A stretch of DNA of 26,503 nt from a virus, in IMG/VR virus record IMGVR_UViG_3300042507_002430, positions 1 through 26,503 of that record. One strand, 5' to 3'. Positions 13,060 to 14,454 of the stretch are shown here, piece by piece. The notes under the pieces were generated by a model, which saw nothing but the letters and a program-made list of their open reading frames with translations, made no database searches and was not told the DNA's origin. The translations under genes were made by a program, and so were the position numbers. The first letter of the stretch is position 1, and every line of letters begins with the position of its first letter.

Positions 13060-13088
13060 TTGACACTCATGGAATGAGCCACTACCAT
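13060..13088 (+). promoter_or_regulatory. Candidate sigma70 promoter with palindromic spacer, upstream of tRNA
   Basis: A perfect -35 hexamer TTGACA (13060-13065), a 17-base spacer and a weaker -10 TACCAT (13083-13088). The spacer contains the palindrome CTCAT-GGA-ATGAG, a possible operator. Transcription would run right, through a hairpin, into the tRNA gene. Confidence 0.4.
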
Positions 13089-13100
13089 CTAGCCAACAAC

Positions 13101-13146
13101 ACCTCCCACGCCTCTCCGCGAAGCGCACCAAGGGAGGTTGCTTTTT
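13101..13146 (+). terminator. Terminator-like hairpin just before the tRNA
   Basis: A 7-bp stem ACCTCCC/GGGAGGT (13101-13107 with 13132-13138) encloses an inner CGC-GAA-GCG hairpin and is followed by five T (13142-13146). The tRNA 5' end is at 13148, so the element may terminate or attenuate rightward transcription, or be the remains of an upstream tRNA-operon segment. Confidence 0.55.
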
Positions 13147-13174
13147 ATCCTGTGTAGCTCAGGGGCAGAGCGGC

Positions 13175-13202
13175 TTGACTTCTTCCGCATATCAATTATA
13201 CT
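13175..13202 (+). promoter_or_regulatory. Sigma70 promoter of the HNH gene, overlapping the tRNA 5' half
   Basis: TTGACT (13175-13180), a 16-base spacer and TATACT (13197-13202), each one mismatch from consensus. The ATG at 13209 follows after 6 bases, so the transcript should begin at or next to the start codon. A 7-bp inverted repeat ATCAATT/AATTGAT brackets the -10 region (13191-13197 and 13204-13210). Confidence 0.65.
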
Positions 13203-13505
13203 AAATTGATGAAGAAAGACACAAGGACATATTCAGATCGCAGAGAACACAATAAAGCTGCAGTATCAAAACGCAGAAAAAAAATAAAACAAATGGCCAT
13301 TGAGTACAAAGGTGGGTCATGTGAAGTCTGCGGATATTGCAAGTGCTCATCAGCGTTGGAATTTCACCATATAAATCCAATGCAAAAAGACTTTTCCATA
13401 GCCTCTAATGGTCACAGCAGATCATGGGAAAAAGTAAAAAATGAGTTGGATAAGTGTTTAATGTTATGCGCTAATTGCCACAGAGAAATGCATGCCAACA
13501 ATACT
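13175..13505 (+). mobile_element. HNH homing-endonuclease insertion in tRNA-Asn
   Basis: A compact insertion of about 330 bases consisting almost only of a promoter and an HNH gene. The left border is near 13174/13175, where tRNA sequence ends and the -35 hexamer begins. The right border is near 13502-13505. An ACT triplet occurs on both sides (13178-13180 and 13503-13505). The insert is much richer in A/T than its flanks. There is no room for a group I intron core and no G at the possible 3' junctions, so this looks like a free-standing homing gene placed at a conserved tRNA site. Confidence 0.65.
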
Positions 13506-13517
13506 GTTAATCGCTAG
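13209..13517 (+). CDS. HNH homing endonuclease
   Basis: A 102-residue protein with a basic N terminus (RREHNKAAVSKRRKKIKQ) and an HNH nuclease domain. It shows CEVC (C38/C41), the FHHINP signature (H53/H54, with N56), and CANCHREMH (C87/C90, H91/H95). The four cysteines would bind a structural zinc and the His/Asn residues form the metal-dependent nick or cut site. The ATG at 13209 is preferred; a TTG one codon upstream (13206) is the alternative. There is no Shine-Dalgarno, and the promoter lies so close that the mRNA should be leaderless. The stop TAG uses tRNA bases 43-45, so coding and tRNA sequence overlap. The gene is AT-rich compared with its surroundings, consistent with acquisition. 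Confidence 0.85.
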   Translation: MKKDTRTYSDRREHNKAAVSKRRKKIKQMAIEYKGGSCEVCGYCKCSSALEFHHINPMQKDFSIASNGHSRSWEKVKNELDKCLMLCANCHREMHANNTVNR

Positions 13518-13642
13518 GTCGTTGGTTCGATCCCAACCGCAGGAGCCATAAGTCAAGCGTAAGTAAAGTACCACCCACGGGTTCGCATGCCGGGTACTAA
13601 TTGCCCTCACAGAGGCGCGGGGTGGTAGACGCAATGTGCAAG

Positions 13643-13706: not shown

Positions 13707-13739
13707 AAATGTGCGTGAGCGGGAATAGTTATTTTACTT

Positions 13740-13767
13740 TTGACAATAGGACTCCTTTTGTTACAAT
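13740..13767 (+). promoter_or_regulatory. Sigma70 promoter of the GIY-YIG gene
   Basis: A perfect TTGACA (13740-13745), a 16-base spacer and TACAAT (13762-13767). The ATG at 13774 follows after 6 bases. The spacing is identical to the HNH promoter at 13175-13202 and again predicts a leaderless transcript. Confidence 0.75.
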
Positions 13768-13773
13768 CACCGC

Positions 13774-14430
13774 ATGTCCAACAATTGTGGAACCTACATC
13801 GTCAAATGCGGCAACACCGCTTACATCGGATCAAGCTCAAATTTCCAGCAAAGGAAGTCCGCTCACAAGCGTGACCTTGAGCGGGGGATCCACCCGAACC
13901 AAAATCTCCAGCAGGCCTTCGACGGGTCACAGGACTTCTCGTTCATCCCTCACCAGTACATCACCCCGGTAGACTGCCCAAACGAGCTACGCACCATCCT
14001 GCGCAACGCAGAGCAAGCCCTGCTGGACGAGGCTGCAAAATCCAACCTGTGGGTCATCGCAAACATCTCCCAGAACGCATTCGGCCCACACGCAAGACCA
14101 GACATGGTGGCAAGGTGGCAAGACCCAGAGTTCCGCGAGTCCATGTCAAAAATGATCAAATCCAGAGTCATTAGCGACGATACCAAGCGCAAGATGTCGC
14201 TGGCAAAGCAGGGCGCAAATAACGCCAAGGCTCGCAAGGTAATCGTCACAAACCCAGACAGGTCAGAGACCACCTTCAGCACAACCACCGAGGCCGCGCA
14301 GTTCTTTCGAATCTCGCAGCAACTCCTGCACCTCATGCTCAAGGGAAAGACCGCTTGGCCGGGCAAGGGGAAGTTCATCCGCAACAAGGAAAACGAGTGG
14401 ATGAGGGAATACGAGGCTAGGTTGGTGTAG
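13774..14430 (+). CDS. GIY-YIG homing endonuclease with NUMOD-type DNA-binding tail
   Basis: A 218-residue protein. Residues 6-90 form a GIY-YIG nuclease domain: GTYIV (GIY variant, 6-10), YIG (17-19), R27, and a conserved Glu in the NAEQALLDE helix (E80 or E86) as metal ligand. Residues about 106-150 (EFRESMSK, SDDTKRKMSLAKQG) resemble NUMOD3 repeats. The C-terminal part (TTTEAAQFFRISQQLLHLMLKGK) looks like a NUMOD1 or HTH specificity domain. This is the layout of phage homing endonucleases such as I-TevI and SegA relatives. Start: the ATG at 13774, 6 bases after a near-consensus -10, with no Shine-Dalgarno. It runs against all phage genes except the neighbouring HNH gene, and a terminator follows. 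Long open frames on the opposite strand here are shadows. Confidence 0.9.
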   Translation: MSNNCGTYIVKCGNTAYIGSSSNFQQRKSAHKRDLERGIHPNQNLQQAFDGSQDFSFIPHQYITPVDCPNELRTILRNAEQALLDEAAKSNLWVIANISQNAFGPHARPDMVARWQDPEFRESMSKMIKSRVISDDTKRKMSLAKQGANNAKARKVIVTNPDRSETTFSTTTEAAQFFRISQQLLHLMLKGKTAWPGKGKFIRNKENEWMREYEARLV

Positions 14431-14454
14431 GTTCCACTTTGGGCAATTTTTGAA

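Follow-up and report, generated by a model that had tools for sequence, protein, structure and literature searches.

An HNH endonuclease gene without a ribozyme splits a viral tRNA-Asn(GTT) gene in its anticodon arm and is probably a homing gene related to those of bacterial group I introns

Introduction

Homing endonucleases spread when they cut copies of their site that are not interrupted, and repair then copies the endonuclease gene into the break. How mobile group I introns acquire such enzymes is a long-standing question, and it has been proposed that the endonuclease is there first, already cutting the site at which the intron later inserts. Among the described systems, SegB of the T-even phages is a free-standing GIY-YIG endonuclease that is tied to phage transfer RNA (tRNA) genes and cuts within them (PMC13096335; PMC2988022), while MobE splits the nrdA gene of phage Aeh1 without an intron (PMC2988022). 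Group I introns were known in bacterial tRNAs, and none in phage tRNA genes, at the time of a 2014 review (PMC3984707). According to the part of PMC10448857 that treats collaborative homing, intronless endonucleases that cut an intron insertion site are known in protein genes (Bonocora and Shub 2009; Zeng 2009). Here we describe a locus in the virus record IMGVR_UViG_3300042507_002430 of IMG/VR (positions 1 to 26,503; this whole 26,503-nucleotide stretch is called the window), in which the gene for an HNH endonuclease lies between two pieces of a tRNA-Asn(GTT) gene.

Results

The tRNA-Asn(GTT) gene of the window consists of two pieces, 5'-TCCTGTGTAGCTCAGGGGCAGAGC and ACTGTTAATCGCTAGGTCGTTGGTTCGATCCCAACCGCAGGAGCCA, and ARAGORN calls no intact tRNA in the window. 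The 5' piece contains a D stem of 4 bp, and the pieces pair with each other at all seven positions of the acceptor stem across a 331-bp insert, much as the initial annotation of this DNA had described for two pieces about 330 bases apart. The features of the locus are as follows.

13148-13171, + strand: 5' piece of tRNA-Asn(GTT), nt 1-24 (5' strand of the acceptor stem, D arm); identical to the intact gene of contig L040, with 7/7 acceptor pairs to the 3' piece
13172-13502 (alternatively 13181-13505), + strand: insert of 331 bp in place of tRNA nt 25-29 (AAGCG); missing from 18 relatives with an intact tRNA
13175-13202, + strand: promoter-like TTGACT-16-TATACT, 10/12 consensus matches; putative function
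13209-13517, + strand: HNH endonuclease open reading frame (ORF), 102 aa (alternative TTG start at 13206); matches phrog_2255 (expectation value E=2.7e-29) and keeps the family-invariant residues
13503-13548, + strand: 3' piece, with anticodon loop ACTGTTAA, 3' anticodon strand, variable loop, T arm, acceptor strand and CCA; identical to L040, T arm and CCA intact

Eighty viral contigs were fetched through the relatedness of the neighbouring 820-aa gene. An intact 75-nt tRNA-Asn(GTT) occupies the equivalent site in 18 contigs that share this adjacent gene, and the tRNA region is wholly absent from four further relatives (L016, L033, L052 and L079). The closest empty site is that of L040, whose identity to the window is complete over 13148-13171 and 13503-13548; the anticodon loop, T arm and CCA that had been recognised in the 3' piece are thus those of an intact tRNA. 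Compared with L040, the window has gained 13172-13502 and its tRNA has lost AAGCG (nt 25-29 by simple count), which places the borders first proposed, 13175-13502, within a few bases of the true ones. Because ACT is present at both borders, the insert can also be placed at 13181-13505, just before the anticodon. This placement, with a clean left border between U33 and G34, is weakened: it calls for several additional changes in the 5' strand of the anticodon stem, although the remainder of both halves is unchanged from L040. A 331-bp insert that replaces nt 25-29 is the simplest description. The insertion is probably young, given that the two halves otherwise match L040 without a difference. 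The relatives thus confirm that an HNH gene splits this tRNA-Asn and that the halves are not unrelated fragments.

The insert lies in the anticodon arm and, in agreement with the initial annotation, is almost entirely an HNH gene whose stop codon uses tRNA bases. The ORF runs from the ATG at 13209 to a TAG at 13515-13517, is the only gene in the insert and accounts for 294 of its 331 bases; its last four sense codons and the stop are supplied by tRNA sequence. The match to phrog_2255 is to an HNH endonuclease family of PHROGs, and every residue that is invariant in the family is retained, so that the nuclease motif is intact. A Pfam search of the protein returned nothing at E<=0.001, and comparison with solved structures gave weak matches only, to a restriction enzyme and a maturase. 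The promoter-like sequence lies at the left edge of the insert, with its -10 box ending 6 nt before the ATG at 13209, and comparable -10 boxes stand shortly before the ATG in several intron copies from Patescibacteria (described below). It is plausible that the gene is transcribed from this sequence as a leaderless mRNA. Integration of the integrase type was rejected as an origin, since a complete tRNA is found at neither end and the HNH ORF is alone in the insert.

No Rfam group I or group II model matches the window at E<=1, in line with the suspicion that a ribozyme is missing and that the insert belongs to no known intron class. Because the 37 non-coding nucleotides are far too few, no group I or group II core is possible in the insert, and it has no visible means of being spliced. 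Direct joining of nt 24 to ACTG gives a sequence in which ARAGORN calls no tRNA. When 13181-13505 is removed, so that GACT joins GTTAATC, ARAGORN calls a 76-nt tRNA-Asn, but its anticodon stem has only 3 bp and it contains one extra base. Neither join restores the anticodon stem, which makes the function of this tRNA-Asn doubtful, as had been suspected; the tRNA has presumably been lost.

These results bear on two ways in which a working tRNA might still be made. The suggestion that the insert is a very small intron of unknown type, removed from the transcript, could draw on the 76-nt call and on the lack of decay in the tRNA halves outside the junction. It is highly unlikely, however: the called tRNA is defective in the anticodon stem and the other join yields none, the insert shows no ribozyme match, no conserved structure and only 37 nt outside the gene, and two other split phage copies (below) have different borders. 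Alternatively, the halves might be made separately, anneal through the acceptor stem and be joined or used nicked, much as the split nrdA of phage Aeh1 stays functional. Both halves are unchanged and the acceptor, D and T arms can still form, but the anticodon stem is down to three of five pairs with five bases gone, no relative keeps a split form, and complementary leaders were not noticed, without a systematic search for them. We therefore regard a tRNA working in pieces as very unlikely. Trans-spliced split tRNAs of the Nanoarchaeum type have separately transcribed halves with complementary leaders and depend on an archaeal splicing endonuclease; in the window the two halves share one strand and are separated by 331 bp that hold the HNH gene.

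The HNH belongs to a family that is associated with tRNA-Asn in phages. Its closest relatives in annotated phages sit in tRNA clusters, many of them adjoining tRNA-Asn, and in several the HNH stop codon falls within the start of the next tRNA. A tRNA-Asn(GTT) lies within 300 bp of the HNH (<=300 bp) in 67 of 121 distinct viral loci. Asparagine tRNAs make up 69 of the 197 tRNAs that flank the HNH, compared with 16 of 473 non-flanking tRNAs in the same loci (p=1.7e-26, for loci that are not fully independent). Contigs retrieved with a second profile repeat the association, some having tRNA-Asn on both sides. As the tRNA-Asn(GTT) anticodon loop is the factor common to the family members, it is likely to be the target of the HNH. 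In many phages (L110, L112, L118, L120-L124, L126-L128 and others) the HNH stop is found at a constant offset within the first ten bases of the tRNA-Asn that follows.

Two of the viral contigs, L129 and L155, carry a family HNH between two tRNA halves with 7/7 acceptor pairs and no ribozyme. Their 3' halves best match annotated tRNA-Asn, the 5' half of L155 comes after a tRNA-Thr, like the tRNA-Asn of phage HU1, and in both contigs the tRNA sequence starts again precisely with the TAA of CTGT^TAA, which is the site of the bacterial introns described below. L129 and L155 are independent ribozyme-less insertions into tRNA-Asn at the intron site. Partial forms were also found. L082 (936-1437) has an orphan 5' half of tRNA-Asn, the HNH and then a complete tRNA-Asn, and L096 (phage Aci05, 1003-1490) has a complete tRNA-Ile, the HNH and then an orphan 3' half; both look like insertions that carry a replacement half. 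In L101 and L154 an orphan 5' half stands ahead of the HNH, and no close phage record of the L101 flanks shows an empty site. Rfam group I and group II models found nothing in L101, L125, L154, L165 or L082. Scanning the viral loci with a loose regular expression for the group I P7 motif produced chance matches, and Rfam was used instead. Separately, L379 (1410-2118) may hold a split tRNA other than Asn, with the acceptor strands GCTCCTA/TAGGAGC; its 5' half is directly followed by a TTGACA box, and a complete tRNA-Ile lies within the split.

As a control for chance, the upstream regions of 122 viral loci were swapped, giving 2422 pairings. The split-tRNA pattern arose in three of these pairings and is present in 4 of the 122 real loci. 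An assembly chimera, or a chance meeting of unrelated fragments, could be suspected since the window is a metagenome contig and the insert is absent from other contigs at this site. Given the low chance rate, the two independent cases in other contigs and the fact that the inserted HNH is a member of the one family connected with the anticodon loops of tRNA-Asn and is located in that very loop region, such an artefact is the least probable of the explanations considered.

A scan of bacterial and archaeal genomes yielded 80 homologues of the HNH (L266-L345) with 58-69% identity, in hosts that include Omnitrophota, Patescibacteria, Elusimicrobiota, Melainabacteria, Acidobacteriota and others. 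In 72 of the 80 the HNH is flanked by the halves of a tRNA-Asn(GTT) whose acceptor stem is perfect, and all 72 splits break the gene inside the anticodon, at CTGT^TAA. The Rfam group I intron model RF00028 matches 51 of 56 loci tested, over or just 3' of the end of the HNH ORF; the match in L266 falls just below the gathering score (E=1.7e-9). One viral contig also has a complete HNH-bearing group I intron in tRNA-Asn(GTT) (L226, 1392-2011, on the same contig as L348), which would make that intron putatively viral. Measured against these introns, the window lacks both the RF00028 core and the CTGT^TAA junction, its tRNA pieces ending at nt 24 and resuming at ACTGTTAA. HNH-bearing group I introns at CTGT^TAA of tRNA-Asn(GTT) are thus widespread in Omnitrophota, Patescibacteria, Elusimicrobiota and other groups; we found no published account of them in the open-access literature, which is no proof of novelty. 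This link to group I introns goes beyond the initial annotation and changes the significance of the split.

To place the window copy we compared two trees; only 101 columns could be used and the branches in the relevant part are short, so that the branching order is not settled. In a tree of 133 rows the window HNH and L101 group with all intron-encoded HNHs (98 by the Shimodaira-Hasegawa-like approximate likelihood ratio test, SH-aLRT), while L129 and L155 fall among free-standing phage copies. In a more careful tree of 48 rows the intron-encoded copies form one clade (93/75; present in 96% of bootstrap trees), and L101 and the window branch immediately outside it.

Two origins of the element can be considered. 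In the first, phage HNHs that recognise the tRNA-Asn anticodon loop would at first have occupied places next to the tRNA or within it with no ribozyme attached, as in the window, L129 and L155; one lineage would later have joined a group I ribozyme there and spread through bacterial tRNA-Asn. On this view the intermediate would have a living relative in the window. We put this forward tentatively, at somewhat less than an even chance. In the second, which concerns the same element, a deletion would have removed the ribozyme core from an HNH-bearing group I intron in tRNA-Asn, so that the HNH and an unspliceable tRNA remained. This is a possibility of about one in a few: the window HNH is closest to the intron-encoded copies and has the same short N terminus, the order of 5' half, short leader and HNH is that of the introns, and the viral contig L226/L348 retains a complete intron. 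However, the careful tree places the window and L101 outside the intron-encoded clade (93/75), and the 40-nt leader of the window is not significantly similar to the intron leaders, the similarity being not convincingly above that of shuffled sequences. In addition, a simple deletion within an intron at CTGT^TAA should retain CTGT at the left border and TAA at the right one, whereas the window has ACTGTTAA on the right and has lost nt 25-29 on the left. An origin from the endonuclease is somewhat favoured, as a leaning and not strongly, because the link to tRNA-Asn is common to the wider phage family, the intron copies make up one clade, ribozyme-less insertions arose independently at the intron site in L129 and L155, and the borders in the window differ from those of a deleted intron.

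Two further elements lie next to the split tRNA. Just upstream, at 13102-13138 (+), is a solitary abiF RNA (RF03085, 39.7 bits against a gathering score of 37, and up to 47.5 bits in relatives), which was noted at the window locus and in L001, L014, L015, L040, L043, L046 and L061. A promoter-like TTGACA-17-TACCAT precedes it at 13060-13088, and no AbiF-like gene was noticed. In C. difficile the abiF RNA acts as antitoxin to AbiF (PMC12373285), so that the copy beside the tRNA may be a phage-borne antitoxin mimic, that is, an anti-defence cassette. Just downstream lies a GIY-YIG gene at 13774-14430 (+). The stretch 13729-14436 is missing in L043 and L044, and therefore a second homing-type gene has apparently been inserted beside the same tRNA-Asn.

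Discussion

We interpret the insert as a free-standing HNH homing endonuclease gene that has inserted into the anticodon arm of a phage tRNA-Asn(GTT), a site that its family appears to recognise, and we give this reading a probability of roughly 80%. The HNH motif is intact, 18 uninterrupted recipient sites are present among relatives, and no intron or intein surrounds the gene, which agrees with a free-standing homing endonuclease; such an enzyme would also be expected to cut the uninterrupted site and to be preferentially inherited. The idea, already raised in the initial annotation, of a homing gene that targets a conserved tRNA is strongly supported by an HNH subfamily that is linked to tRNA-Asn(GTT) in phages and encoded in group I introns of its anticodon loop in bacteria. 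The strongest single argument is the contrast between hosts. Copies inside tRNA-Asn carry a ribozyme in bacteria, where the tRNA is essential, while ribozyme-less copies survive in phages, where it is accessory, and it is on this contrast that homing is best argued.

The HNH, made from its own promoter, would cut or nick uninterrupted tRNA-Asn genes, for example in a co-infecting relative. Repair off the interrupted copy would then transfer the insert, and the interrupted site would cease to be a target, the insert having removed it in cis. With no ribozyme the RNA could not be spliced and the tRNA would be lost, a cost that a phage might bear but that would be too high for a bacterium in which tRNA-Asn is essential.

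Several points weigh against this interpretation. We infer the cutting activity, its target and the steps of homing. The insert is missing from every other copy at this site among the relatives, so that its spread is not seen. It is not a clean insertion, as its right border lies 5 nt upstream of the intron site CTGT^TAA and five tRNA bases have been lost. The window contig is a metagenome assembly, with its junctions taken as assembled, and the viral loci were retrieved as best hits, so that the counts of proximity to tRNA-Asn are not independent of ancestry.

Across phages and several bacterial phyla, the HNH family shows all stages at one site: free-standing copies next to tRNA-Asn, copies within it that lack a ribozyme, and copies within it that are accompanied by a group I ribozyme. 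The ribozyme-less copy in the window may therefore help to show how mobile introns arise, and both cutting specificity and the direction of change are testable with a few small proteins and one 75-bp target. The locus further suggests that a selfish gene is able to destroy a phage tRNA, a loss of some consequence given that phage tRNAs can act against defences that cut tRNA.

Among known systems, the closest are the HNH genes in group I introns of bacterial tRNA-Asn(GTT), which share with the window the HNH subfamily (58-69% identity), the tRNA, the anticodon arm and the position of the HNH just after the 5' half. They differ in having the RF00028 ribozyme and the exact CTGT^TAA site, whereas the window is ribozyme-less with its right border 5 nt upstream. 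A known intron-encoded endonuclease likewise targets, and is encoded in, a tRNA anticodon region, but it concerns another tRNA, lies in a self-splicing intron and has a different nuclease fold, PD-(D/E)XK. SegB resembles the window HNH as a free-standing phage homing endonuclease associated with tRNA genes; unlike it, SegB is of the GIY-YIG type, lies between tRNAs and splits none. MobE is a free-standing, intronless HNH homing gene that divides its host gene in two, but that host is a protein gene functional in pieces, while the window has an RNA gene that has probably lost its function. The endonucleases of collaborative homing, as cited in PMC10448857, also have no intron of their own and are tied to a group I intron site of relatives; they act beside an intron in protein genes, whereas in the window the site lies in a tRNA and is taken up by the HNH gene itself. 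A ribozyme-less homing gene situated in the anticodon arm of a tRNA is a new version of these known kinds.
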